The notes under the pieces were generated by a model that was not told where the DNA came from, made no database searches, and saw nothing but the letters and a program-made list of their open reading frames with translations. Position numbers and translations under genes: made by a program. A DNA stretch of 58,225 bases from Actinomycetota bacterium (GTDB lineage Bacteria > Actinomycetota > Acidimicrobiia > Acidimicrobiales > AC-14): assembly GCA_040754375.1 (NCBI GenBank), contig JBFMCT010000019.1, forward strand, positions 1 to 58,225. The letters run 5' to 3'. Numbering within the stretch: position 1 is the stretch's first letter; every line of letters begins with the position of its first letter. This document shows positions 2,688 through 48,532 of the stretch, piece by piece.

Positions 2688-4010
2688 GTGTGCGCGCCCG
2701 TGACCGACATCTCCTCCGCCCTGGCCTGGCTGGCCGACCACGTCAACTTCGAGGCCGACCGCTCGGGGCTGGCGGCCGCCCGCCGCCTCGACCGCATGCG
2801 GCGGCTGACGGCCCTCATGGGCGACCCCCAGTCGGCCTACCCGGTCGTCCACATAACCGGGACCAACGGCAAGGGCTCCACGGCCCGCATGGTCACGGCC
2901 CTTCTGCGTGCCCAGGGCCTGTCGGTGGGCACATACACCAGCCCCCACCTCCAGCGCGTGAACGAGCGCATGGCGTGGGACGGCCAGCCCATCGCCGACG
3001 ATGCCCTGGCCGAAGCGCTGGCCTCGGTGGCCGCCCTGGAGCCGCTGGTGGAGCCGGACGAGGGCCGGCTGACCCACTTCGAGATCCTCACGGCAGCCGC
3101 CTTGCGGTGGTTCGCCGACGTGGCCGCCGACGTGGCGGTGCTCGAGGTCGGCCTAGGCGGTCGGTGGGACGCCACCAACGTGGCCGACGGCCAGGTGGCG
3201 GTCGTCACGAACGTGGCCCTCGACCACGCCGAGACCATCGGGCCCGCTTTGGCCGACATCGCCCGCGAGAAGGCGGGGATAATCAAGGCTGGCTGCACAC
3301 TCGTGCTGGGCGAGACGGTGGACGACCTGGCAGCCGTCTTCGAAGCCGCGGCGGCCGACGTGGGTGCCGCGGTGTGGCGCAGGGGCCGTGACTTCGGGTG
3401 GACAGCCAACCGCCTGGCCGTCGGGGGCCGGGCGCTCGACCTGTTCTCTCCGGGGGCGACCTACCGGGGCGTCTTCCTGCCCGCCCACGGCCGCTTCCAG
3501 GGGGACAACGCGGCGACGGCGGTGGCGGCCGTCAACGCCTTCTTCGGGGTCCCGCTGGCCCACGAGACCGTTGACGCTGCGCTGTACGGGGCGAAGGTCC
3601 CGGGGCGGCTCGAGGTCGTCGGCCACGGACCGCTGCGCATCCTCGACGGGGCCCACAACCCAGCGGGGGCGGCGGCTGCGGCCGAGGCCATCGACGAGGC
3701 CTTCGGCACGTCCCAGCCCCGGGTCCTGGTCGTGGGCATGGTCGCCGGCCGGGACCCCGTCGAGATGCTCGAAGCCATGGGCGCGGGCCGGGCGCGGCTG
3801 GTCGTGGCCTGCCCGCCACCCTCACCCCGGGCCCTGGCTCCCGAGCAGGTGGCGGCCGCGGCCGAGTCGTTGGGTACCGCCAGCCGCGTCGCCACCGGGG
3901 TGGAGGAGGCGGTCGAGATGGCGCTCTCGGAGGCGACCACCGACGACCTCGTGCTGATCACCGGCTCGCTCTACGTGGTCGGCGCGGCCCGTTCCTGGCT
4001 TCTGGGCTAG
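2688..4010 (+). CDS. folC: bifunctional folylpolyglutamate synthase / dihydrofolate synthase
   Basis: Mur-ligase-like ATP enzyme that joins glutamate to dihydropteroate and adds further glutamates to folates in the cytoplasm. 440 residues, the normal length. The nucleotide loop HITGTNGKGSTARM lies near residues 55-68; TSPHLQRVNERM, LEVGLGGRWDATN and the later ILDGAHNPAG are hallmark FolC motifs. The start given is GTG 2688; GTG 2700 (MTDISSALAW) is equally possible. A terminator precedes it, so it probably has its own promoter. A decayed PIN gene overlaps its stop codon on the other strand. Confidence 0.94.
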   Translation: MCAPVTDISSALAWLADHVNFEADRSGLAAARRLDRMRRLTALMGDPQSAYPVVHITGTNGKGSTARMVTALLRAQGLSVGTYTSPHLQRVNERMAWDGQPIADDALAEALASVAALEPLVEPDEGRLTHFEILTAAALRWFADVAADVAVLEVGLGGRWDATNVADGQVAVVTNVALDHAETIGPALADIAREKAGIIKAGCTLVLGETVDDLAAVFEAAAADVGAAVWRRGRDFGWTANRLAVGGRALDLFSPGATYRGVFLPAHGRFQGDNAATAVAAVNAFFGVPLAHETVDAALYGAKVPGRLEVVGHGPLRILDGAHNPAGAAAAAEAIDEAFGTSQPRVLVVGMVAGRDPVEMLEAMGAGRARLVVACPPPSPRALAPEQVAAAAESLGTASRVATGVEEAVEMALSEATTDDLVLITGSLYVVGAARSWLLG

Positions 4011-4219
4011 GAGGCTCGTGCCTTTCGCGTCCGGCCCACTGGCGGCCCTGAGGTGACGGGAGCCACGGGGACGGCGGTCGCAACGTCGGGGTGGAGGGCC
4101 ACGAGCCCGGTGTCGAAGGTCGCCAGCAGACCGCCGCGGTGGCGGCCCAGGGCGGCGAGGTAGGCGTCAGTGACCCGTGGGCCGATCGGACGGCCGTTCG
4201 AGGGGCCGCTACTGAGGCG
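4007..4219 (-). pseudogene. remnant of a VapC-type PIN-domain toxin (C-terminal part)
   Basis: The minus strand between in-frame stops at 4222-4220 and 4009-4007 reads GRPIGPRVTDAYLAALGRHR followed by GGLLATFDTGLVALHPDV. This is the typical end of a VapC/PIN ribonuclease: the TDAYLAALA helix with the third catalytic Asp, then the LATFD strand with the fourth. No start codon precedes it and the N-terminal half with the first catalytic Asp is missing, so it is a gene fragment. Its beginning overlaps the ndk promoter and its stop overlaps the folC stop, so a former toxin gene appears mostly deleted from this spot. Confidence 0.62.
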
Positions 4220-24336: not shown

Positions 24337-25263
24337 GTGAGGCGGGCCGAGCGATGGTTGTTCGGGGCAGAGACGCCCCGCCGCCTGGTCCTGGTGCAAG
24401 TCGCGCTGGCGGTGGTGATCGGCCTCCGGGTCGCTCTCGGTCCCTACCGGGAGCTGGCCGGTCAACCGGCGGCCCTGTTCCGGCCCGTGTGGTTCCTCAG
24501 GGCCTTGGACGCCATGCCCGGGGTCGAGGCCATCGCGGCCCTCCAGGTGGTGGGCACGGTGGGGGCCGTCGTGGCCGTCGTGGGGCGGGGCCGGTCCCGC
24601 CGGGCGGGGCTGGTGGTGGCGTGGCTGTGCCTGCTGGTGCTGGCCGGGCTGCGGGGCAGCCGGGGCAAGGTCATGCACAACGACGCCTTGCTCCTGCTGG
24701 CGACCGTACCCCTGCTCGTGGCCCCGCTGGTGGCCCGGTCCTCCGACCGCCGGCCCTCGACCCGCTACGGCTGGCCGCTGCGGACGTCGATGGTCGTGGT
24801 GGCCGGGGCTTACTTCTTCGCCGGGTTCCACAAGCTGGTCGAGTCGGGCCCGGCATGGGTGGTGAGCGACAACCTGTCCAACGTGCTGGCCGTGGCCGCC
24901 CGCAGCGGCCGGGTCGCGTTCCCGTGGCTGCCCGAGGCGGTGGCTGGCCTGCCCGTCGTGCCCGTCGTGGTGGCCGGGCTCGTGCTGGCGCTGGAGGTGA
25001 CCTTCCCGCTCGCCCTGGTATGGGCCCGGCTCCGCCCCGGGTACGCGGTGGGGGCCGTGGCGTTGCACTCGGCCACGTGGTTGCTCCTGGGCCTCGACTA
25101 CTGGGCGTGGGCGGCCGTCACCCCCCTGGTCCTGGTCGACTGGCCGGCGTGGGCGCGCGGTAGACGGCGCCGACCGCGTCCTGGTCGACGAGCACCAGGC
25201 CCAGAGCGTCCGCCAGTTCCTGCGGGGTCGGGAGCGCCACCAGCCGCGACGGCGGTCGCGTGA
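24337..25263 (+). CDS. HTTM-like polytopic membrane protein (vitamin K-dependent carboxylase-like fold)
   Basis: 308 residues with about eight hydrophobic segments. The stretch VVVAGAYFFAGFHKLVESGP followed by AWVVSDNL, and the loop RGKVMHNDALLLLATVPLLV, are typical of the HTTM group, membrane proteins related to vitamin K-dependent gamma-carboxylase and mostly of unknown role in bacteria. The last ~50 residues are Arg/Pro/Ala-rich and are encoded by DNA that is antisense to the end of the glycosyltransferase-like gene. The frame remains open for 146 bases of overlap. It probably pairs with the membrane protein encoded 9 bases upstream. Confidence 0.74.
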   Translation: MRRAERWLFGAETPRRLVLVQVALAVVIGLRVALGPYRELAGQPAALFRPVWFLRALDAMPGVEAIAALQVVGTVGAVVAVVGRGRSRRAGLVVAWLCLLVLAGLRGSRGKVMHNDALLLLATVPLLVAPLVARSSDRRPSTRYGWPLRTSMVVVAGAYFFAGFHKLVESGPAWVVSDNLSNVLAVAARSGRVAFPWLPEAVAGLPVVPVVVAGLVLALEVTFPLALVWARLRPGYAVGAVALHSATWLLLGLDYWAWAAVTPLVLVDWPAWARGRRRRPRPGRRAPGPERPPVPAGSGAPPAATAVA

Positions 25264-27085
25264 AGTAGACGACCAGCCCACCGGCGTGCAGCCTCTGGGC
25301 CATGGCCGCCAACTCGGCTTCGTACCTGGGGTTGGGGCGGCCCGAGTAGAAGTCGGACTTCTCGGGCAGGAGGGTGGCCACCCGCCCGGTGTGGTGCCAG
25401 AGGGCGTCGACCTGGTTGGTGTAGACGGGCTGGGACAGCGACAGGGCGCGGACGGCCTCGGTCCCGGCCGACGAGGCGAAGGCGGGCGACGTGAACCCGC
25501 CGGGCCGGACCTCGGGGTCGCGCAGGGCGTCCCACGACCAGGCCGCGCCCGAGGCCACCTGGCCGGCGACGACCACTACGAGGGCGGCCCGGGCCAGCCG
25601 GGCCCCCGCCGTTCGGCTCAGGGCCAGGGCGGCCATCACGACGGCAGCCATGTGCACCGGGAACAGGAACCGCTGGTCGAGCCGTCCCGTCACCTCGAAC
25701 ACCGCCCGGTTGGCCACCAGTACCCCGACGTAGGCAGCGGCGAGGACGGCCGTGAGGGCCACGACCACCGAAACCTGCGCGGGAACCGTGGGTGAAACGC
25801 CCACGGTTCCCGCGCAGGTTTCGTGGGGTGGGGCCTGCGCCGGGCGTCCCGGCCCGTTCCGGTCCCGGACGCCGGCCCGCACGGCGGCGACGGCCAGGGC
25901 GGTGACGATCAGGACGGCCCCGGCCAGGCGGGCCACCTCGGGGACCTCGGCGGGCACGAACCAGGCGGACGCCGTCCGGGCCCCGGCCGCGAACCAGTCG
26001 AGCCCCGGCGGGTGCCAGCCGGCCGTCCGGTTGACGACCTGGCCGCCGGTGCCCCCAGCCCACGCCAGCCATCCCGCCAGGGGCGCCAGGGCGATGGCCG
26101 CGAAGGCGGCCGCCCCCAGTAGCCGGGCCCGCAACGTCAGCCGGGCCGTTGGTTCGGCACCTTCCGCCGCTCCTGACGCCGCCCCGCCATCGGCCGGCCC
26201 TGACGCCGCCCCGCCATCGGCCGGCCCTGACGCCGCCCCGCCATCGGCCGGCCCTGACGCCGCCCCGCCATCGGCCGGCCCTGACGCCGCCCCGCCATCG
26301 GCTGGCCCGCCCACCGCCCCGCCATCGGCTGGCCCGCCCACCGCCGACTCGTCCCCCGCCGGCTCCGCGGGCCTAGGACGGCGACCGGGGTGGCGCGCGA
26401 CCATGAGGGCCAAGGCGCCGCCCGCGACCAGGGCTATGCCCACGTAGCGGGTGAGGCAGGCGGCGCCGGCCAGGAGGGCGGCCACGGCCAGGAGGGCGGA
26501 TCGCTGTCCCGTCCGGGCCGGGGAACTCGCGGTGGCCAGGGCGGCGGCTGTCAGGACCGCCAGCAACACGAACAGGGGCTCGCTCAGTCCCGAGGTTGTG
26601 AAGGCCAGGAAGTCGAGCCCGGCCGCCACCAGGACCTGGGCGGCCACGGCCAGCCCCAGGGCCCGCGTCAGCCGGTGGACGCCCACACCCACGGCCAGTA
26701 CCACCAGGCCTCCGAGGACGGGGTTGAGGACCTGGACGACCGTGAACGGGCTGGGGCCGAGCGAGCTGAAGGCGGCGACCAACAGGGTGAACAGGGGCGG
26801 GAAGTTGGCCACCGGAGGAGACCCGGGGGGCGGGGTGAAGCCGTCGCCGCCGGCCAGGTTGGCGGCCGTGCCCAGGTAAGCCAGGGCGTCGGGGCTCGTG
26901 TAGACGCCGCGTCGAGAGATAGCCAGGGCCAACGCGGTGGCGGCCACCGCAGGGAGGGCCAGGGCCAGGAGGTCGGCCGACCTCCCCTTGACGAGCCCCC
27001 TGGTAGAGCCGGGTCGCGGCCAACGGGGCGGTCGGCCGCTTAGGGAGGGTTCAGAGGTCAGCCGCCTACTGGGGCTGATTGGCAT
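25118..27085 (-). CDS. large membrane protein, probable GT-C-type glycosyltransferase
   Basis: 655 residues, about 11-12 membrane helices. Just after helix 1 lies SRRGVYTSPDALAYLGTAAN, with the acidic loop (SPDALAY) typical of GT-C enzymes such as ArnT and mannosyltransferases that use lipid-linked sugars. TSGLSEPLF also fits. A soluble end (~560-655) carries LSLSQPVYTNQVDALWHHTG. Two insertions break the core: residues ~249-304 are a GPADGGAAS tandem repeat, and residues ~421-438 (ETCAGTVGVSPTVPAQVS) are a 55-bp palindromic element. Exact acceptor and sugar are unknown. A well-spaced promoter gives a leaderless start at ATG 27085. Confidence 0.76.
   Translation of the reverse strand: MPISPSRRLTSEPSLSGRPPRWPRPGSTRGLVKGRSADLLALALPAVAATALALAISRRGVYTSPDALAYLGTAANLAGGDGFTPPPGSPPVANFPPLFTLLVAAFSSLGPSPFTVVQVLNPVLGGLVVLAVGVGVHRLTRALGLAVAAQVLVAAGLDFLAFTTSGLSEPLFVLLAVLTAAALATASSPARTGQRSALLAVAALLAGAACLTRYVGIALVAGGALALMVARHPGRRPRPAEPAGDESAVGGPADGGAVGGPADGGAASGPADGGAASGPADGGAASGPADGGAASGPADGGAASGAAEGAEPTARLTLRARLLGAAAFAAIALAPLAGWLAWAGGTGGQVVNRTAGWHPPGLDWFAAGARTASAWFVPAEVPEVARLAGAVLIVTALAVAAVRAGVRDRNGPGRPAQAPPHETCAGTVGVSPTVPAQVSVVVALTAVLAAAYVGVLVANRAVFEVTGRLDQRFLFPVHMAAVVMAALALSRTAGARLARAALVVVVAGQVASGAAWSWDALRDPEVRPGGFTSPAFASSAGTEAVRALSLSQPVYTNQVDALWHHTGRVATLLPEKSDFYSGRPNPRYEAELAAMAQRLHAGGLVVYFTRPPSRLVALPTPQELADALGLVLVDQDAVGAVYRAPTPASRPGPGG
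25769..25823. repeat. 55-bp palindromic element, copy 1 (in frame inside a membrane protein gene)
   Basis: Perfect 24-bp inverted repeat (arms 25769-25792 and 25800-25823, beginning CGAAACCTGCGCGGGAACC) around the 7-base loop TGAAACG. A second copy at 44848-44902 differs at one loop base. It is read in frame as ETCAGTVGVSPTVPAQVS in the glycosyltransferase-like protein, between membrane segments. The sharp edges and second copy point to a mobile or dispersed element and not to a terminator. Confidence 0.85.
26174..26340 (-). repeat. 27-bp minisatellite in coding sequence
   Basis: Five near-identical 27-bp units starting TGACGCCGCCCCGCCATCGG at 26174, 26201, 26228, 26255 and 26282, then two variant units. 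They encode GPADGGAAS repeats in a loop of the glycosyltransferase-like protein. The unit length is a multiple of three, so copy-number change would keep the frame. Confidence 0.88.
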
Positions 27086-39975: not shown

Positions 39976-40004
39976 TTGTGTGAAGCATGAAATAGCACTA
40001 TACT
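39976..40004 (+). promoter_or_regulatory. promoter of the pseudokinase-LysM operon
   Basis: TTGTGT (39976-39981), 17 bases, TATACT (39999-40004) in an AT-rich island (39959-40025). GTG 40014 follows 9 bases after the -10 box, so the transcript is probably leaderless. Confidence 0.68.
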
Positions 40005-40013
40005 GGCTCTACT

Positions 40014-42146
40014 GTGAAGGTAGAGCATGGCGTGGACGGTCGGGGCCGACCGGTGGCGGTCAAGCGGGCGGAGTCGGCCGACGACTCTGCTCGTCTGCGG
40101 CGGGAGGCCGACCTGCTCGACGTGGCCGGCCACCCCGCTCTGGTCGAGCTCTTGGAGTTCGACGACGGGCCGCCGGCGGTGATGCACACCGCCTGGGTCG
40201 CGGGCCGGAGACTGGACGAACGGCCCCTGGAAGTGGAGGAGGTGGCCGGGGTGGTGGCCGCCTTGGCCTCGACCCTGGCCGACCTCCACGCCATGGGGAT
40301 CGTTCACGGGGCGGTCGAGCCCGATCACGTGCTGCTCGACGAGGGCGGCCGCCCCGTCCTGTGCAGCCTGGGCCGCGGCGGCCTGACCGGCGAACGGCTC
40401 GCGCCCCGCCCAACGGCCGTGGTCGAAGGCACCGCCGCCCCGGGGACTGCCTACCCGGGCACGGGCGGCCCAGGGAACGCTGGCTCGGGGAACGCTGGCT
40501 CGGGCACGGGCGGCACGGGAACAGGCGGCCCGGGCACAGGCGGCTCGGGCACCGGCGGCTCGGGGAACGCTGGCTCGGGCACCGGCGGCTCGGGAACAGG
40601 CGGCCCGGGAACGGGCGGCCCGGGAAACGCTGGCTCGGGCACCGGCGGCTCGGGAACAGGCGGCCCGGGAACGGGCGGCACGGGCACGGGCACGGGCGGC
40701 GCAGCGCTCGGGAACGCCGGGTCGGGGAGCGCCGCCCCGGGCACCGCCTACCCGGGCACCGCCTACCCGGGCACCGCCTACCCGGGCACCGCCGGACCGG
40801 GCATCGCCTACCCGGGCACCGCCTACCCGGGCACCGCCGGACCGGGCACCGCCGGACCGGGCACCGCCGGACCGGGCGCGGGCGGGGCGGCCTTGGGGAA
40901 CGCCGGGTCGGCTGGGGGCGGGGGCGTCGACCACTGGAGCGGCACACCGGAGGAGCCGGTCGACGTGCTTGCTCCGGCAGCCGACGTCGTCGGGCTGGGC
41001 AGGGTACTCGTGGCCCTCTTGGCGGCCGGGGGGCGGGCCCACGGGGGGAACGCCGACGCTCTGCACCGGATCGCCGACCGGGCCATGGCCGCCCCGGTCG
41101 AAGACCGTCCGTCGGCCCGAGACGTGGCCGATGCCGTGCACGACGCCGTCCCCGGGGCACGGTTGCCCCGCGACAGCCCGTCCGGCCCACCGGGGCCACC
41201 GCCTTCGAGCCGTCGGGAGCGCCGCCAGCGCCAGCGCCCGCTCGAGATGTGGCGGCGCGACCAGGTGCAATCGCGCCGGAAAGCGCCGTCACGCCGTCAC
41301 CTGCCGGTAATCGCTGCAGTGGTGGTGGCCGCGGGTGTCGGAGCCGGGGCGTTGGTCGCCACCGGCGGGGCCAGCCCCAACTCGGCGAGCGGGCTCGGCA
41401 CGGCGGCAGCCGCCGGCCCCTCCTCTCGCGACGGCCAGGGCCCGGCCGCCCCGGGGCCAGACGGCTCTGGAGCCCGGCCCAGTGACGGCGGTGGCGCCGG
41501 GCCCGGTGGCGCCGGGCCCAGCGGTGGCACGCCCGGGGGGCACGGGAACGGAGCCGCCCGGAACGGAGCGGCCGGGGACGCACCGGGGGCGGGAGCCGCC
41601 GGAGCCGGTGCTCCGGGCGACGGTGGGGCAGTCGCAGCCGGGCCGGTGGGCGGGAGCGGTGGTACGGGCAGCCATGCCGGGCCGGGGCCGGCGGCCGGCG
41701 AAGCTCGGTCGCCAGGAGAAGCGGGCGCCGTCCCCGGGGGTCAGCAGGTGCGTGTGCCGGCCGGGTGCCCGCCGGTCCAGGGGTCGCTGGCGGCCGACGT
41801 GGACGGCGACGGGTGCCCGGAGGCTCTGAGGGTGGGCGACGGTTTCGTGGAGTCCGGTGAGCGGCGGTGGGTGGTCGGTGCTCCCGGTGACCTGCTCGCC
41901 CTGGGCGACTGGAACTGTTCGGGGGCAAGGTCTCTGGCCGTCCTGCGGCCCAGCACGGGCGAGGTCTTCGTCTTCGACGGGTGGGCGGCCGAAGGTGACG
42001 ACCGCGTGGCGCCGCTGCTGGGCCGGGTCGATGGGGCCAGCACGATCCGGGCCGCCGACCTCGATGCCGACGGGTGCAACGAGATCGTGGTCGAGCGTGT
42101 GGGTGCCGTCCCGGTCGTCCTGAGGGCCCCCGGGAGCGGGCGATGA
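40014..42146 (+). CDS. membrane pseudokinase with glycine-rich insert and FG-GAP-like extracellular domain
   Basis: 710 residues. Residues 1-125 match the N-lobe and catalytic region of a Ser/Thr kinase (VAVKR with Lys17, LRREADLL, GIVHGAVEPDHVLLDE at 96-110). The HRDLKPEN loop reads HGAVEPDH and DFG reads SLG, so the catalytic Asp, Lys and metal-binding residues are lost. A repeat of GSGTGG/GTAYP units (~143-300) replaces the activation segment, and the C-lobe resumes at APAADVVGLGRVLVALLAAG with DRPSARDVADAVHDAV. One membrane helix (~429-452), a Gly/Ala-rich stalk, and a C-terminal domain with DVDGDG (~595) and DLDADG Ca-binding loops follow. The stop overlaps the LysM gene. Confidence 0.78.
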   Translation: MKVEHGVDGRGRPVAVKRAESADDSARLRREADLLDVAGHPALVELLEFDDGPPAVMHTAWVAGRRLDERPLEVEEVAGVVAALASTLADLHAMGIVHGAVEPDHVLLDEGGRPVLCSLGRGGLTGERLAPRPTAVVEGTAAPGTAYPGTGGPGNAGSGNAGSGTGGTGTGGPGTGGSGTGGSGNAGSGTGGSGTGGPGTGGPGNAGSGTGGSGTGGPGTGGTGTGTGGAALGNAGSGSAAPGTAYPGTAYPGTAYPGTAGPGIAYPGTAYPGTAGPGTAGPGTAGPGAGGAALGNAGSAGGGGVDHWSGTPEEPVDVLAPAADVVGLGRVLVALLAAGGRAHGGNADALHRIADRAMAAPVEDRPSARDVADAVHDAVPGARLPRDSPSGPPGPPPSSRRERRQRQRPLEMWRRDQVQSRRKAPSRRHLPVIAAVVVAAGVGAGALVATGGASPNSASGLGTAAAAGPSSRDGQGPAAPGPDGSGARPSDGGGAGPGGAGPSGGTPGGHGNGAARNGAAGDAPGAGAAGAGAPGDGGAVAAGPVGGSGGTGSHAGPGPAAGEARSPGEAGAVPGGQQVRVPAGCPPVQGSLAADVDGDGCPEALRVGDGFVESGERRWVVGAPGDLLALGDWNCSGARSLAVLRPSTGEVFVFDGWAAEGDDRVAPLLGRVDGASTIRAADLDADGCNEIVVERVGAVPVVLRAPGSGR
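40440..40890 (+). repeat. glycine-rich coding repeat region of the pseudokinase
   Basis: Two repeat zones: irregular 12-18 bp units of the GGCTCGGGCACCGGC type (40440-40720), and units of the GGCACCGCCTACCCG type (40735-40870). They encode Gly-Ser-Gly-Thr and Gly-Thr-Ala-Tyr-Pro repeats. Confidence 0.82.
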
Positions 42147-42901
42147 GCCGGCCCCGCCTGGCGCTGCTCGGCTGGACGGTCGTTGTCGGCGCCTGCGCGA
42201 CAGCGCTCCGGCGGGCGGGTGCGGGCGAGCTGGCGCCTCCCCCGGTGCTCGACCCCCGAGGGTGGGGGGAGTGGGTGGCGGGGCGCGATCCGGTCGTGGC
42301 CGCCGTTGCCCTCCTACGGCTACTGGCCCTCGCGGCCGTCTGGTACCTGCTGGTGGCGGCAGCCGTGGGCCTCGTGCTGCGCGCCCTGCGGGCCGAGCGT
42401 CTCGTGGGCCTGGCCGACCTGTTCACGGTCGCCCCGCTGCGGAGGATGCTGGTTGGAGTGGCCGGGATAAGCCTCGCTTCGGGGGTGAACCCGTCGATGT
42501 TGCTCACGCCGCCGGCTGCCGCCCAGGTCACGGTCTCGACCAGCCCACCGTCAACGGTGGTCCCGGGTGGTACCCCTGGGCCCACGATCACCATGCGCCT
42601 GCTGCCCGGCCCCGAGGCCGGCCCCGTCCCGTCCCCGGCCCCGGCCGGCCCGGTGGTCGCCGCCCCGTCGGGCACCGCCGCTCAGGAGCGGACGTGGACG
42701 GTAAGGCCGGGGGACTGCTTCTGGTCGATCGCCGACGAAGTGCTGGCCCAGGCCTGGGGTACGCCGCCGAGCGACGCCGAGATCATCCCCTACTGGCGCG
42801 ACCTCATCGAGGTCAACCGCCACCTGCTGGCCGACCGTTCCAACGCCGACCTGATCTTCCCGGGCCAGGTGTTCACGCTCCCGCCGGTCCCGCCGCCATA
42901 G
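42143..42901 (+). CDS. LysM-domain membrane protein
   Basis: 252 residues. An N-terminal hydrophobic segment (LALLGWTVVVGACATALRRA) and a second one (AVALLRLLALAAVWYLLVAA with AVGLVLRAL) are followed by a Pro-rich stalk and a LysM domain at ~195-250 (WTVRPGDCFWSIADEVL, LIEVNRHLLADRSNADLIFP, GQVFTLP) that should bind peptidoglycan. Coupled to the pseudokinase by an ATGA overlap, so the two probably act together at the wall. LysM membrane proteins with this layout are frequent near actinobacterial pilus loci. Confidence 0.85.
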   Translation: MSRPRLALLGWTVVVGACATALRRAGAGELAPPPVLDPRGWGEWVAGRDPVVAAVALLRLLALAAVWYLLVAAAVGLVLRALRAERLVGLADLFTVAPLRRMLVGVAGISLASGVNPSMLLTPPAAAQVTVSTSPPSTVVPGGTPGPTITMRLLPGPEAGPVPSPAPAGPVVAAPSGTAAQERTWTVRPGDCFWSIADEVLAQAWGTPPSDAEIIPYWRDLIEVNRHLLADRSNADLIFPGQVFTLPPVPPP

Positions 42902-43224
42902 GCGTACCCGCGGCCAGCGCCTCGGCCCGGCGGCGAACGCCGGCCAGCATGTCCCGCGCCATCACGAAGTCGGCAGGCACGATGAGAAGCCAGGCAGCCG
43001 CCGTCACCCACCACGGGGCAGTCGACCAGCGCGATCGGAAGTGGAACCGTGACCGCCGGCCGCCGTCGAGGGCCTGTTACCCCCGTCGGTCGGCCGACCA
43101 GCCCGTCGCCTGGAAGTGGCTCCGTACGTTCCGCCGCGGTGGACCCGTAGGTCCGTCCGAGGCGCACGAGGGCCGCCTCGACGGCCGCTACTGCGACGAG
43201 GGCGGCGGCGACGCGTCTGCCCAC
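42873..43224 (-). pseudogene. decayed SRPBCC (START-like) family gene, core deleted
   Basis: From GTG 43224 the minus strand encodes VAAVEAALVRLGRTYGSTAA and ERTEPLPGDGLVGRPTGV, which matches the N-terminal membrane segment and LPGDxLVPxP motif of actinobacterial SRPBCC proteins. After ~55 codons the sense continues only in another frame as WWVTAAAWLLIVPADFVMAR and DMLAGVRRRAEAL, the family's C-terminal FVMxRxML-GI-RRAE motif, stopping at 42873. The central ligand-binding domain is missing, so a deletion and a frameshift have destroyed the gene. It overlaps the last 29 bases of the LysM gene. Confidence 0.6.
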
Positions 43225-43234
43225 CGAGCCCGCG

Positions 43235-43753
43235 TCAGCCTCGGCACCCGGCTTCGAACCACTTCTCGACCCGCTCGGCCGCGGCCCGGTAGGCGGGCTC
43301 GTCGAGCGACGAGGTGGCCTGCTCGAGGTCGCGCAGCAGGGCCGACGACGGTGGCTGGCCAGATGCGGGGTTGTAGCCCGAGCCGGCGAACACCCGGGCC
43401 ACGCGGGAGTAGCCCTCGACGACCACGTTGAGATCGCCGCGGATGGAGCTGGGCGCGGCCGCTGCGAACGCCTCGAGCTGGGCGATCGTGCGGGTGTAGT
43501 CCGCGTCCGCCCCCGTGATGGCCGCCCCGGCCGCGGCCGCCGCCTGGGACATGGCCACGGCTATCTCCACGCAGCGGGCCGTGCTCAGGGCGTCTTGACC
43601 ACCAGCGCCCGTCCCGCCCGCTGTACCCGAGCCCTGGCTTGCCGGGTCGGTAACCGGAGCTCCCGACGAGCTCCCCCCGCCGTCGCCCCCGCCGCACGCA
43701 CCCAGGACCAGGGCCACGCAGGCCACGACAACCGCGAAAACTCGAGATCTCAC
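43235..43753 (-). CDS. small secreted lipoprotein, unknown function
   Basis: 172 residues. A classic lipoprotein signal (RSRVFAVVVACVALVLGACG, lipobox LGAC with the lipidated Cys at residue 20), a Gly/Ser-rich linker, and a helical domain (~55-172) with Cys in ARCVEIAVAMSQAAAAA and Cys in EKWFEAGCRG that could form a disulfide. GTG 43753 is preceded on the minus strand by GAGGGGAC. No family recognised; such short actinobacterial lipoproteins are often cell-wall anchored helical bundles. Confidence 0.76.
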   Translation of the reverse strand: MRSRVFAVVVACVALVLGACGGGDGGGSSSGAPVTDPASQGSGTAGGTGAGGQDALSTARCVEIAVAMSQAAAAAGAAITGADADYTRTIAQLEAFAAAAPSSIRGDLNVVVEGYSRVARVFAGSGYNPASGQPPSSALLRDLEQATSSLDEPAYRAAAERVEKWFEAGCRG

Positions 43754-44148
43754 AGCGTCCCCTCTCCCTCGGGGCCACCCTACCGTCGGAGACCCCGCCC
43801 GCCCGCCCGCCGGCCGGCAACCCCGCAGCGGCGGCAGGCGCGCGCCGTCCCGGGGGATGGACGGCGCATGCGGTGCAGGGTCGGTGGTACGAGCGTCCGG
43901 ACCGATCGTACGGACTGCTCACCACTCCCAACCCCCCGGCTGGAGCGGTTCCCCTCCACGCGGGGCCTCGCTCCGTGGCCATCTTGGTCGTGGAGCCGTC
44001 CCGAACGACAGGGTGCCAGCCGGCGTCTTCTGCCCGGGGTGCTAGCACCACCGGGGCCTACGATGGCGGGACGGGCCCAGAACCCACTACCGACCAGGCC
44101 GGTGGCTCACCGGCCGCCCACCCCGGAGACGGCGGGCCGGCCCTGCGC

Positions 44149-44805
44149 GTGGTCGTGGCCGACGACTGGTACCTGGTGCGAGAGGGCGCCCGCAGCGCCC
44201 TGTCGACGGTGCCGGGCGTCGAGGTGGTGGGTGTGGCGGCCGACGCCGACGAGCTAATGGGTGTGCTGGAGGCCACCCAGCCCGATGCCGTGCTGTTGGA
44301 CGTGCGGATGCCGCCCACGCACCGGACCGAGGGGATCGACGCCGCCCATGCCATCCGGGAGCGGTGGCCGTCCATGGGAGTGGTGATCCTTTCGCAGTTC
44401 GACGACCCCGAGTACGCCCTCGAACTGCTCAAGGGTGGCTCCAACGGCCGGGCCTACATGCTCAAGGAGCGCCTGGGGGCGCCCATGCAGCTGGCCGAGG
44501 CGTTGCGGGAGGTGGCTGCCGGAGGCTCCATCCTCGATCCCAAGGTGGTCGACGGCCTGCTCGAGGCCCAGCGCCGGCGCAGCCGGTCGAAGCTTCACGG
44601 CCTGACCGATCGCGAGCACGAGGTGCTGGCCCTCATGGCCGGCGGGCGCACCAACGCGGCCATCGCCCGGGCGCTGGTGCTGACCGAGCGGGCCGTCGAA
44701 AAGCACATCAACGCCATCTTCCGCAAGCTGGGGCTCAACGAGGAGCTGGACATGAACCACCGGGTGGCGGCCGTGCTGATCTTCCTCCAGCGCCAGACGA
44801 GTTGA
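44149..44805 (+). CDS. NarL/FixJ-type response regulator
   Basis: Two-component transcription regulator. Receiver domain with VVVADDWYLVREGARSALST, the phosphorylated Asp in AVLLDVRMPP and the later VVILSQFDD and AYMLKERLG (switch Lys), then a LuxR-type helix-turn-helix (LTDREHEVLALMAGGRTNAA, IARALVLTERAVEKHINAIF). The start is unclear: GTG 44149 is the shortest form, but the first strand begins LRVVV, so a CTG at 44143 or a start further up (frame open to 43873, for example TTG 43985) is possible. It converges with the histidine kinase gene, its probable partner. Confidence 0.86.
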   Translation: MVVADDWYLVREGARSALSTVPGVEVVGVAADADELMGVLEATQPDAVLLDVRMPPTHRTEGIDAAHAIRERWPSMGVVILSQFDDPEYALELLKGGSNGRAYMLKERLGAPMQLAEALREVAAGGSILDPKVVDGLLEAQRRRSRSKLHGLTDREHEVLALMAGGRTNAAIARALVLTERAVEKHINAIFRKLGLNEELDMNHRVAAVLIFLQRQTS

Positions 44806-44844
44806 CGGCCGGCCCCGGCCCCAAGCCCCGGCCCCAGCCCCACG

Positions 44845-46677
44845 TCACGAAACCTGCGCGGGAACCGTGGGCGTTTCGCCCACGGTTCCCGCGCAGGTTT
44901 CGGTCCCGGGGGCTGGCGGGACCGGGAACGTGGCGACCACCGACGTCCCGTGCCCGGGCCGGGACTCGATGCGCAGGTCCCCACCGAAGGAGCGGGCCCT
45001 GTCCTCCATGTGGAGCAGGCCCCCGTTCCGCCCGGTGCTCTTGGCGTCGAAGCCGCGGCCGTCGTCGGTGACCGATACCCGCAGGCGGCCCTCGGACACG
45101 TCCAGGGCCAAGGCCAGCTCAGTGGCACCCGAGTGCTTCAGGGCGTTGGTGACCGCCTCGAACATCAGGAAGTAGGCGGCCGTCTCGACGTCGGCGGGCA
45201 GGGCCGGCAGGGGGTCGGGCGACAGGTCGAGAGAGCTAGGAAGGGGAAGGCGGCTGGCGTAGCTGCGCAGGGCGGCAGTCAGGCCTCGGTCCCGCAGGAT
45301 GGCCGGGTAGAGGTTGTGGCTGACCTCCCGCAACTGCTCGATCGTCCGGTCCAGCTCGGCGGCCAGAGCGTCGGCCCCCGCCCCGTCCTCGATGCCCAGG
45401 TTGACCGTCATGCGCAGCACCAACAGTTGCTGCTGGATCCCGTCGTGCAGGTCGCGGGCCAGGCGGCGCCGTTCCTCGTCCTGGGCCGTGACCACCCGCT
45501 GGGAGCTCTCGCGTAACTGGGCGGCTTGGCGTTCGACGAGAGCCAGCTTGGCCTCCAGCTCGGTCCGCATGCGGTCCAGGGCGACGGCCAGCCGCCCGAT
45601 CTCGTCGCTGCTGCGGGCCACGAAGGGCCGGCCCCGCTCTCCGGAGGCGATGCGCTCGGCCGTGCCCGCCAGCTCGACCAGCGGCCTGACCATGGCCCTG
45701 AACAGCAGCCAGCCCAGGGCCACCGCCAGCGCGGCCATCACCGACCCGGCCACCACCCGGCGCACGGCCAGCGCCCGGGCCAGGTCGGCGGCCGGGTCGG
45801 GCAGGGCGATCCCCAGGGCGCCACCCACGGGGCTGGCCGCGGACCGCCCCACGGGCACGTAGGCCACGAGGCTGTCCTCGCCCGCCAGCCGGGTCACCCG
45901 GGGCCGGTCAGGCAGCTCGCCCGTGCGGTCGTCGCGCCCCGGGGGCTCGGTCACCGGGTGGCTCAGGGTGCTGCCGGCCACGGCGTCGCCCACGACCAGG
46001 ATGACCCCGGCCAGGCCGCCCAGCTGGCGCCGCAGGCGGAAGGCCAGGTTGTCGCCGAACTCCCGGCCCCCGACCAGGACCAGGGCGTCTGGCCCGGTCC
46101 CCACGGTGACCGGGACGGCCTGGACGAACACGCCGTTCACCGTGGCCACCAGCCGGCTGGTCGGTTCGGTGGTGAAACCCGCGCCCCGCCCGAAGGGGAG
46201 GACGGGCGACAGGGCGCCCACGCTGACCGGCGGGTCGAGGGCCGCGCCCGTGCCGTCGACGACGTCGAGCTGGTCGAGCTCGAGGTTGGTGACCTCCACG
46301 CCCAGCCGGGCGATCAGTTCCGGGCGGCGGGCGGGGTCGGTGAGGCCGTCGCTGTCCAGGCGGCTGCCGAGGTTGCGAAGGGCCAGCACCAGCTCCCGCT
46401 GACGTTCGGTGAACGCCTCCTGGAGGACCCGCAGGTTGCTGTCGGCCACGTCGCGCGTCTGGCCGGCCACCGCGGCCCGTGTCAGGCGGGCGTCGACCAC
46501 GGCCGTGACCGCGGTGGACACCACCAGGACCAGCACCAGCGCCGCCAGGACCTTACCCAGGACCGAGGACCGCAGGGGCCGGGGGGTGGCCCGCGACAGA
46601 AGGCACTGGTCGCCTGGCTCACGGCCACCCCCGCCCCCAGGCCCGGCCACACCACCGCCCGCAGGCCCGCGGCTCAC
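44845..46677 (-). CDS. sensor histidine kinase (HisKA_3 type)
   Basis: 610 residues. Two membrane helices (LGKVLAALVLVLVVSTAVTA; VVAGSVMAALAVALGWLLFR) enclose a ~240-residue extracytoplasmic sensor region. A HAMP-like linker and DEERRRLARDLHDGIQQQLL with phospho-His411 follow, then the ATPase domain (EAVTNALKHSG, VTDDGRGFD). GTG 46677 overlaps the stop of the binding-protein gene (GTGA), giving translational coupling. The last 18 residues, ETCAGTVGETPTVPAQVS, come from a 55-bp palindromic element whose edge abuts the TGA stop. The response regulator is the convergent neighbour. Confidence 0.9.
   Translation of the reverse strand: MSRGPAGGGVAGPGGGGGREPGDQCLLSRATPRPLRSSVLGKVLAALVLVLVVSTAVTAVVDARLTRAAVAGQTRDVADSNLRVLQEAFTERQRELVLALRNLGSRLDSDGLTDPARRPELIARLGVEVTNLELDQLDVVDGTGAALDPPVSVGALSPVLPFGRGAGFTTEPTSRLVATVNGVFVQAVPVTVGTGPDALVLVGGREFGDNLAFRLRRQLGGLAGVILVVGDAVAGSTLSHPVTEPPGRDDRTGELPDRPRVTRLAGEDSLVAYVPVGRSAASPVGGALGIALPDPAADLARALAVRRVVAGSVMAALAVALGWLLFRAMVRPLVELAGTAERIASGERGRPFVARSSDEIGRLAVALDRMRTELEAKLALVERQAAQLRESSQRVVTAQDEERRRLARDLHDGIQQQLLVLRMTVNLGIEDGAGADALAAELDRTIEQLREVSHNLYPAILRDRGLTAALRSYASRLPLPSSLDLSPDPLPALPADVETAAYFLMFEAVTNALKHSGATELALALDVSEGRLRVSVTDDGRGFDAKSTGRNGGLLHMEDRARSFGGDLRIESRPGHGTSVVATFPVPPAPGTETCAGTVGETPTVPAQVS
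44848..44902. repeat. 55-bp palindromic element, copy 2 (forms the C-terminus of the histidine kinase)
   Basis: Perfect 24-bp inverted repeat (44848-44871 and 44879-44902) with the 7-base loop CGTTTCG. It matches copy 1 at 25769-25823 except for one loop base when reverse-complemented. The kinase frame runs through it and stops at the base after its edge. Confidence 0.85.
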
Positions 46678-47921
46678 GGCGGGGCCAGCGAGGACACGGC
46701 CCGGGACTGGGCCTCGGCCAGGGCGGTGCGGGCGTCGGCCCGCTCCCTGAGGACGCGGGACAGGGCGTCGCCGAAGGCCTGGGACGCCTCGTGCAGCGCC
46801 CCCAGGATCGGGGGGTGAGCGGTGGCCAGCTGTTCGACGAAGACCCTGAGCTGGGGATCGGCGAAGTGAGGGTCGGACAGCACCCGGGGGCGGACCGGCA
46901 GGCGGCCTTCCTCCTTGGCGAACCGCAGGGCGTAGGGGTCGGACGTGAGCAGCAGCATGAACTCGAAGGCCAGCTCGCGGTTGGGCGAACCCTTGGGCAC
47001 CCACAGGCTGCTGCCGCCCATCGACGACCCGGCGGTGGCCCCGGTCAGGCCCCGGGGCATGAGGGCCACCCCGAAGTCGCCGTCGGGCACCTCCCTGGTC
47101 ACCCTGACCAGGTCCCACGAGCCGCTGGTGTACATGGCCACCTGGCCGGAGCGGAAGAGGGCGTAGGCGTCGGTGGAGCGGGCATCGGGCCCGAGGGGAC
47201 CGAAGGCCACGCCCGAGTCGATCAGCCTGCCCAGGTAGTCGAGCGTGCCCACCACGGCCGGGCTGTCGAAGGTGAACACCGGCGTCCCCCCGGGCTCGAC
47301 CCGGAGCAGGTCCCCGCCGTTGGCCCGTACCCAGCCGAACGTGACCCAGGTGTCGACCGGCACGACCAGCCCCCGCCGGGCCCCGTCGGGGCTCGTGAGC
47401 TGGCCGGCCAGGCGCTCGAAGTCCACGAACGACAGCGGCCCGGTGGGCGGGGACAGGCCCAGTTCCCGGAAGCGGGTGGTGTTGTAGAGCACGGCCATGG
47501 CGTTGCTGTCGAGGGGCACGCCGTAGCGGCGGCCGGCCCAGGTGACGTCGGCCACCGCGCCGGGCAAGAACTCGTCGGCCGTGAGGCCGTGGTGGTCCCA
47601 CAGGTCGTCGAGCGGTTCGGCCAGGTCCTGGCCGGCTCCCGTGTGAGCGTGGCCCTGGATCACGTCGGGCGGGGAGCCGCCGGCGATGCCGGCCCGGACG
47701 ACGTCGGCCATCCTGCCGATCGGGCCCCGGTCGATGTCCACCCGCACCCGCGGGTGGGTGCGCTCGAACTCCCGGACGGCGTCGGTGAAGGGGGCCGTTA
47801 CCCAGTCGTCGGTCATGACCACCCTGAGGACCGTCGTCGGTCCGGCCCGGGCCCCCGTCTCCCCGCCGCAGGCAGCCGAGACGGCGGCTGCCACAACCAG
47901 GACCGGCAGGAACCGCCTCAT
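46674..47921 (-). CDS. sugar-type ABC solute-binding lipoprotein, likely sensor partner of the kinase
   Basis: Family 1 (UgpB/MalE-like) extracellular binding protein. 415 residues: signal peptide MRRFLPVLVVAAAVSAACGG with lipidated Cys18, then VLRVVMTDDWVTAPFTDAVR, GRRYGVPLDSNAMAVLYNTT, DYLGRLIDSGVAFGPLGPDA, FRSGQVAMYTSGSWDLVRVT and SSMGGSSLWVPKGSPNRELA, all typical of the family. No permease or ATPase gene is adjacent; the gene is instead coupled by a 4-base overlap to a histidine kinase. It probably delivers ligand status to the kinase instead of a transporter. Ligand unknown. Confidence 0.88.
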   Translation of the reverse strand: MRRFLPVLVVAAAVSAACGGETGARAGPTTVLRVVMTDDWVTAPFTDAVREFERTHPRVRVDIDRGPIGRMADVVRAGIAGGSPPDVIQGHAHTGAGQDLAEPLDDLWDHHGLTADEFLPGAVADVTWAGRRYGVPLDSNAMAVLYNTTRFRELGLSPPTGPLSFVDFERLAGQLTSPDGARRGLVVPVDTWVTFGWVRANGGDLLRVEPGGTPVFTFDSPAVVGTLDYLGRLIDSGVAFGPLGPDARSTDAYALFRSGQVAMYTSGSWDLVRVTREVPDGDFGVALMPRGLTGATAGSSMGGSSLWVPKGSPNRELAFEFMLLLTSDPYALRFAKEEGRLPVRPRVLSDPHFADPQLRVFVEQLATAHPPILGALHEASQAFGDALSRVLRERADARTALAEAQSRAVSSLAPP

Positions 47922-47930
47922 CGGCCGTAC

Positions 47931-47936
47931 ATAGTA
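47931..47936 (-). promoter_or_regulatory. candidate -10 box of the binding protein-kinase operon
   Basis: TACTAT on the minus strand, 9 bases before ATG 47921; leaderless-type spacing. Confidence 0.42.
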
Positions 47937-47986
47937 CGAGCGGTCGACGCCGGCTGCCCAGCCCTAACCTCCCGGCCGTATGGGGG

Positions 47987-48532
47987 TCAGTGGCTGAGCC
48001 TGAGCTCCAGGTCCTCGAGGCGCTCGACCAGGGCGCCCGGTTCGGTGCCGAACATCCCGGCGATGGCCCGGATGTCGTCGCGCCGGATGGTCAGCATCCG
48101 CCCGTTGAAGTCCTGGCGCATGACCTGGATGCTGTTCAGGTACTGGCGGACCATCTCCAGCTCGGGGTCTTCGACGTCGCGGAAGCGAGCGAGGTCGAAG
48201 GTGATCTTCTCGCTGGCCCCGCTCCGCGCCCGGCCGCCGCCGTCGCCCTGGGGAGAGGCCAGGGCACGGTCGAGCTCGCCGGTGGGCGGCAGCAACTGGT
48301 CGACGGGGACGCTGTAGTAGCTGGCCAACCGCTGGAGGCGGGGCACCGAGATTATGCGCTCGCCCCGCTCGTAGGCGCCCAGGACCGACGCCTTGAACTC
48401 GTGGCCGGACGCGGCCTCCACGTCCTGGAGTGAAAGGCCCTTCTGACGCCGGATCCCCCGCAACCGCTGGCCCACCTTCTGGGCATACGTCTGCAGGGGG
48501 CTGGGGGTTACGCCCCCACCTTCATCGCTCAC
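47987..48532 (-). CDS. BldD-like transcription regulator with c-di-GMP-type signature
   Basis: 181 residues. N-terminal XRE helix-turn-helix (KVGQRLRGIRRQKGLSLQDV, ASVLGAYERGERIISVPRLQ, RLASYYSVPVDQLLPP) with the spacing of BldD, a linker, and a C-terminal domain. The latter contains RQD (139-141), eight residues, then RRDD (150-153), close to the RxD-x8-RxxD signature through which BldD binds a c-di-GMP tetramer. It is therefore predicted to be a c-di-GMP-responsive repressor. GTG 48532 has AGGGG 6 bases upstream. In streptomycetes BldD controls development; the target genes here are unknown. Confidence 0.85.
   Translation of the reverse strand: MSDEGGGVTPSPLQTYAQKVGQRLRGIRRQKGLSLQDVEAASGHEFKASVLGAYERGERIISVPRLQRLASYYSVPVDQLLPPTGELDRALASPQGDGGGRARSGASEKITFDLARFRDVEDPELEMVRQYLNSIQVMRQDFNGRMLTIRRDDIRAIAGMFGTEPGALVERLEDLELRLSH

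Follow-up and report, generated by a model that had tools for sequence, protein, structure and literature searches.

Two palindromes in the window

The stretch of DNA that was analyzed, in the following called the window, comprises 58,225 nucleotides of a contig from an Actinomycetota bacterium. It contains two long palindromes, each of which overlaps a gene on the minus strand. The features of the two regions are:

25118..27085, minus strand: gene of a PMT-like membrane protein, host of copy 1 (Pfam PF02366, 21.6 bits)
25759..25833, no strand: full unit of copy 1 of about 75 bp, including the outer flanks according to alignment A1; matches the covariance model R1 on both strands
25769..25823, no strand: palindrome copy 1, perfect 24-bp arms and a 7-base loop; in frame within the PMT-like gene, residues 422-439
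43873..44805, plus strand: LuxR-type response regulator gene, convergent, ending 42 bp before copy 2; open frame with uncertain start
44838..44912, no strand: full unit of copy 2 of about 75 bp, according to alignment A1
44845..46650, minus strand: histidine kinase gene (HAMP, HisKA_3, HATPase_c), C-terminus lengthened by copy 2
44848..44902, no strand: palindrome copy 2, perfect 26-bp arms and a 3-base loop; encodes the C-terminal 18 residues of the histidine kinase

Arms and loop of copy 1 are those given in the original prediction, and the arms of copy 2 were found to extend to 26 bp. The single mismatch in 55 bases that had been claimed between the copies is obtained when one of them is turned to its reverse complement, and the identity in direct register is 93%. 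As had also been claimed, both copies lie in coding frames and encode 18-residue peptides (ETCAGTVGVSPTVPAQVS and ETCAGTVGETPTVPAQVS), both frames being on the minus strand. The claim that they lie within genes holds for copy 1, which is located in frame inside the PMT-like gene, whereas copy 2 forms the C-terminus of the histidine kinase, whose frame stops directly behind it. The start of the kinase gene is a predicted one, and the open frame extends to 47601. The PMT-like protein has 655 residues; its match to PF02366 is just under the cut-off of 22.7 bits and it has no NCBIfam match.

The two copies are the only perfect inverted repeats in the window with arms of at least 16 bp and a loop of up to 10 bases. 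In 20 mononucleotide shuffles of the window no arm of this length occurred, the longest measuring 13 bp, and the two copies are far beyond chance. A search of the window against Rfam at gathering scores yielded zero matches and thus no known RNA family. By a simple scan of positions 40000-48000 neither a sigma-70-type promoter nor a U-run terminator was detected.

Two tandem arrays were also observed in the window. One of them, with a repeat unit of 27 bp that encodes the 9 residues GPADGGAAS, is located at 26133-26375 inside the PMT-like gene and is absent in the PMT-like orthologues of the relatives G003, G004, and G006. A long 15-bp repeat array with 24 registered copies in two blocks spans 40368-40950.

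A palindrome family throughout the genome

The genome to which the window belongs (G000) comprises 3.51 Mb in 105 contigs and is 97.5% complete. Its lineage is tentatively assigned to the Acidimicrobiia; for one protein of the window, the best matches with a name belong to MAGs labelled Actinomycetes and Acidimicrobiaceae, at 41-42%. Searching it with the 24-base arm and up to three mismatches gave 45 forward and 43 reverse matches, compared with 0 for the reversed-pattern control. The covariance model R1, which was built from 48 copies, reported 110 rows at E ≤0.1, which were collapsed by us into 54 sites and one weak one. With about 54 sites in the genome, an explanation by only two copies or by a local duplication was rejected, and the large copy number on which the suspected mobility depended was found.

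The consensus of the family is CCCCACCCC-n-CG-AAACCTGCGCGGGAATCGTGGGCG-TTT-CGCCCACGATTCCCGCGCAGGTTT-CG-n-GGGGT-n-GGG. The full unit forms a symmetric hairpin of about 75 bp, and most copies are centred on TTT or AAA. The core is highly uniform, with a mean pairwise identity of 91.5% and a minimum of 76% in 48 of the 54 copies. The 12-base outer flanks reach a mean identity of 51% among the same 48 copies, and the outer bases are also much weaker than the core if both strands are counted.

As RNA, copy 1 folds with -61.1 kcal/mol (z -10 against shuffles). When the columns of the alignment were shuffled, the observed percentage of pairs was attained in 239 of 500 cases, and the covariation score in 42 of 500. 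The alignment, whose pairing does not surpass that of its column shuffles, therefore does not demonstrate selection on the hairpin, and covariation was rejected as evidence that an RNA structure is under selection. Apart from the TTT of the arm, the aligned copies contain no T run.

In the stretches that were read, copies without a partner arm were interrupted by N gaps, by the end of a contig or, in one case, by a truncation. Single half-sites of the kind used in DNA uptake were rejected on these grounds, as the arms are paired except in cut copies and chance matches. The copy at L041:4012-4066 ends early within the second arm and is followed by unrelated sequence close to the contig end. Side-by-side pairs of copies were observed at L061:4067-4195 and L054:179-296, with starts 74 and 63 bp apart, which resemble REP dimers.

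Placement relative to genes

A home-made codon-based gene caller was used to classify 53 sites; a further site, on contig 43, was discovered afterwards and is not among them. The sites comprise 19 in convergent, 19 in tandem and 5 in divergent gaps, 4 at contig edges and 6 overlapping genes. From the intergenic length 7.3 convergent, 24.4 tandem and 11.3 divergent sites would be expected (chi-square p 7.5e-6), two of the convergent calls, on contig 37, having a neighbor 1 kb off and being possibly mis-called. Among the tandem copies, 17 of 19 sit 2-27 bp behind the upstream stop codon and the remaining two at 44 and 141 bp. A stop codon lies within 30 bp of 34 of the 47 non-overlapping sites, compared with 16% of intergenic positions. 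For start codons the same distance applies to 6 of 47 sites vs. 21% of intergenic positions, which is not significant (p 0.21). The palindrome is usually located directly behind a stop codon, and only 3 of the 53 classified copies are truly intragenic.

The strong bias toward positions just behind stops and toward convergent gaps, as well as the very stable hairpin, would fit a lineage-specific bidirectional terminator which is selected at gene ends and spread by recombination, with accidental copies in genes. This is regarded as distinctly unlikely. The hairpin is not followed by a T run as in an intrinsic terminator, no terminator motif was found, and the pairing does not exceed that of shuffles. 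Furthermore, a terminator needs no near-identity across the full 51 bp, and 5 of the 53 copies are located between divergent genes and some in frame within genes. Intrinsic terminators without a U-run occur in high-GC actinobacteria, and the palindrome resembles them in being a GC-rich hairpin directly 3′ of the stop codon. It differs from them in that one sequence recurs about 54 times nearly unchanged and is found inside genes as well.

Copies inside genes

Three of the six gene-overlapping copies are located at the 3′ end of the gene (copy 2 of the window as well as L056 and L066), and three are truly internal. The latter are found in the PMT-like gene of the window, in a two-domain GT4 gene and in the gene of an error-prone DNA polymerase. 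In the GT4 protein, the peptide lies between the domains Glyco_transf_4 (14-181) and Glycos_transf_1 (209-363). The polymerase matches NCBIfam PRK05672 with 1466 bits (cut-off 939) and carries the insert within its PHP domain, where a 10-N gap at the middle of the copy interrupts the peptide. In the PMT-like protein, the insert was placed between the hydrophobic segments 384-402 and 440-458 by a hydrophobicity plot. A fold model, in which the insert is a loop between the helices 383-407 and 436-466, agrees with the plot; it is a poor model (mean pLDDT 60) and was used for the loop only.

The three internal copies share one phase, (E/Q)TCAG(I/T)VG..PT(I/V)PAQVS. As any one of the six reading phases is free of stops in 41-46 of 48 copies, this agreement, which is expected by chance in about 1 of 9 cases, is only suggestive. 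The gene-overlapping copy L056 was read in another phase by the codon-based caller.

Short G/C-rich tandem units were observed next to two of the in-gene copies (L064:4060-4110 and L063, about 4000-4080). They are translated into HPHPHP and RPRPRP runs.

Empty sites in relatives

Orthologues were compared at four coding sites, namely the PMT-like, GT4, and polymerase genes and the tail of the kinase. The peptide is absent in the PMT-like orthologues of G003, G004, and G006, the three relatives compared at this site; an orthologue also exists in G008, outside this comparison. In G006 other residues occupy the position of the insert. An independent palindrome in the same loop was rejected for this genome, as no inverted repeat of more than 9 bp was found there with one mismatch allowed. 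For the polymerase gene, 7 of the 9 relatives have matches on both sides of the site, and all 7 skip the insert; the matches of G008 and G009 leave the site uncovered. Five of these relatives were aligned cleanly, and the evidence for G002 consists of the matched ranges alone. The polymerase of G003 is 84% identical in the main segment. The GT4 orthologue of G003 lacks the insert as well, and in G003, G004, and G006 the kinase has neither the extension nor this palindrome at its end. With this, the absence of the peptide from orthologues, the second sign of mobility that had been named beforehand, was found in those examined.

Sites between genes were also found empty. The convergent gap of L044, of which both genes are conserved, has no palindrome in G003, and neither have the 3′ flanks matching L034 and L062, which are followed by a different gene in that genome. 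The absence from these equivalent 3′ ends is a further point against a terminator selected at gene ends. With the stricter filters of a large search, the model R1 gave zero matches in nine same-family genomes, including the closest relative.

From the empty sites and the lack of a match in nine same-family genomes it follows that the copies either arose in this lineage or disappeared from every one of the genomes compared. Of the two, a gain is far simpler. Single recent jumps were not seen, since the closest relative belongs to a different genus. The relatives are too distant at the DNA level for exact borders of the inserts, and no target-site duplication could be demonstrated.

The assembly consists of 105 contigs and N gaps are present inside two copies (L032 and L063), which might point to an artefact of assembly or binning. 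This can practically be dismissed, as the flanks of each in-gene copy align on both sides to a single orthologue of a relative with the frame kept, and the 54 copies have different flanks.

Related palindromes in other genomes

A search for the exact paired pattern gave no match in 59 relatives or in the collections genome_contigs and viral_contigs, from which records very near the genome of the window may be excluded. Within the order, 297 other genomes were searched with the model R1, and two of them, G244 and G272, gave weak matches (E ≤1e-4). Within the class, two out of 394 others, G390 and G567, gave better matches (E ≤1e-6). At a laxer threshold, and after collapsing the rows by hand, about 15 sites were counted in G390, six in G567, four in G244 and two in G272, with a sequence specific to each genome. 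Of 12 loci that were read in G390 and G244, 10 are located in a convergent gap or at a stop; of the remaining two, one lies between divergent genes and the other is undecided. This similar placement of diverged palindromes speaks in favor of the bidirectional terminator discussed above.

The half-site pair GAAAnnTGCGCG..CGCGCAnnTTT was found in 5 of 395 genomes of the class (G000, G042, G124, G244, and G390), and its reversed control gave 0 in all 395. G042, G124, and G244 belong to one genus, in which the inner stems vary widely and two members, G179 and G203, have no half-site pair. In 4 of the 394 other class genomes the outer half-site GAAAnnTGCGCG is thus combined with different inner stems. 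The palindromes of G567 and G272 have the common build but not the half-site GAAAnnTGCGCG, and they may be unrelated.

A paired outer half-site with a differing inner stem would also be compatible with the binding site of a DNA protein, acting in the nucleoid, in segregation or in DNA uptake, which spread by the need for many sites. We consider this highly improbable, as entire hairpins are conserved and not merely half-sites, and as the pattern occurs in only five genomes of the class. Moreover, the copies are clustered instead of spaced, with 6 pairs at most 1.2 kb apart vs. 0.96 expected from random placement.

In G003, palindromes of its own were observed: AGGCAAAnnCCACCGG..CCGGTGGnnTTTGCCT has 3 copies in 661 kb (L171:4055-4089, L169:4046-4080, and L172:1088-1122), and a second family, CTGAGTGRAAATGGCTG.., likewise has 3 copies in 661 kb.

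Comparison with known repeat classes

The likeness to Rickettsia palindromic elements (RPEs) and REPs put forward in the original prediction was found to be apt, with regard to both the 3′ placement and the in-frame copies. Like RPEs, the palindrome is located both between genes and in frame within conserved genes, in this case three with empty orthologues. RPEs differ from it in length (100-150 bp vs. about 75 bp with near-perfect two-fold symmetry and no CGTC tag), in sequence and in lineage; this separation is made by description, and the exact pattern was unmatched in genome_contigs. RPE-4 and RPE-6 correspond to CGTC repeats (PMC2229807, PMC3733652), which apparently have no dedicated transposase (PMC3733652). 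A further source describes that the alpha chain of DNA polymerase III carries an insert in Rickettsia (PMC3767692).

The REP class is similar in that its members are interspersed palindromes of high copy number, here 54 sites and one weak one, at the 3′ ends of genes in convergent and tandem gaps. REPs tagged by GTAG or CGTC are described as high-copy hairpins at 3′ ends, between convergent and unidirectional genes (PMC3733652). The same study reports REPs inside genes of several species, in frame in some of them and including dnaE2, with some providing stop codons (PMC3733652, Di Nocera et al. 2013). As in-frame REPs, DnaE2 included, have already been published, this kind of element is known. 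REPs measure 20-40 bp, carry a conserved tetranucleotide at one end and are often accompanied by a RAYT, whereas the palindrome described here has about 55-75 bp and is symmetric and untagged. Neither GTAG nor CGTC was found at one end in 48-49 copies, whose flank consensus is C-rich/G-rich. A RAYT, which the original prediction had suggested to look for, was not encountered. The Y1 transposase family PF01797, the sole transposase family searched in G000, gave 0 matches there and matches in 5 of 14 control genomes, and RAYT was rejected as the mover in this genome.

Bacterial MITEs (NEMIS, ERIC, RUP, and YPAL) are comparable as small non-autonomous repeats with hairpin RNA. The palindrome could accordingly derive from a DDE-type insertion sequence, as a non-autonomous remnant that is moved via its terminal inverted repeats. 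With a length of about 75 bp, an inverted repeat that spans the whole unit and a high identity of the copies, it has the features of such an element, and in-frame fusions are recorded for some MITE families (PMC2229807). On the other hand, in the stretches of G000 that were read a single arm was never encountered at the end of an insertion sequence, and neither a target duplication nor a partner insertion sequence was demonstrated. This origin is considered rather unlikely; it overlaps with an origin as a REP- or RPE-like repeat and differs from it in the mover.

A prior description of the palindrome family was not found in the literature searched, and its novelty rests on those searches. A general REP survey tabulates Acidimicrobium ferrooxidans as one genome (PMC12306157). 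What is new is the palindrome family, its symmetry and its putative mover.

Proposed mechanism and significance

The palindrome of the window is very probably a copy of a REP/RPE-like palindromic repeat which multiplied in this lineage. Its gain and multiplication in the lineage, its concentration behind stop codons and its in-frame presence in three conserved genes are shown by the analysis. The copies may have been moved in trans by a factor recognizing the symmetric half-site with the outer core GAAAnnTGCGCG, which is the part also present in other species. A copy behind a gene would give the RNA a very stable hairpin, which could mark the ends of mRNAs, protect them or terminate transcription arriving from either direction, and due to this role insertions at such positions would be harmless or useful. 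Inside genes, all three phases are usually open, and an insertion that keeps the frame would add about 20-25 residues, in the polymerase presumably more due to the bordering repeats. Such insertions seem to survive in loops and linkers, and ribosomes trailing the RNA polymerase may prevent the hairpin from forming in translated genes.

More tentatively, and with less than even confidence, symmetric palindromic elements may exist across the class in lineage-specific versions that keep GAAAnnTGCGCG, are moved by an undescribed trans-acting enzyme other than RAYT and can place an identical peptide, in frame, in proteins that are not related to each other.

What moves palindromic repeats that have no dedicated transposase, like those of the Rickettsia type and the CGTC repeats, and how proteins tolerate them in frame is an open question in the field. 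This lineage offers a homogeneous family with three filled in-gene sites and empty counterparts in the same taxonomic family. An error-prone DNA polymerase gene is again a host, as for REPs elsewhere (PMC3733652). The half-site common to distant relatives could help to find the mover, and the in-gene copies would be translated as an extra loop in their host proteins.
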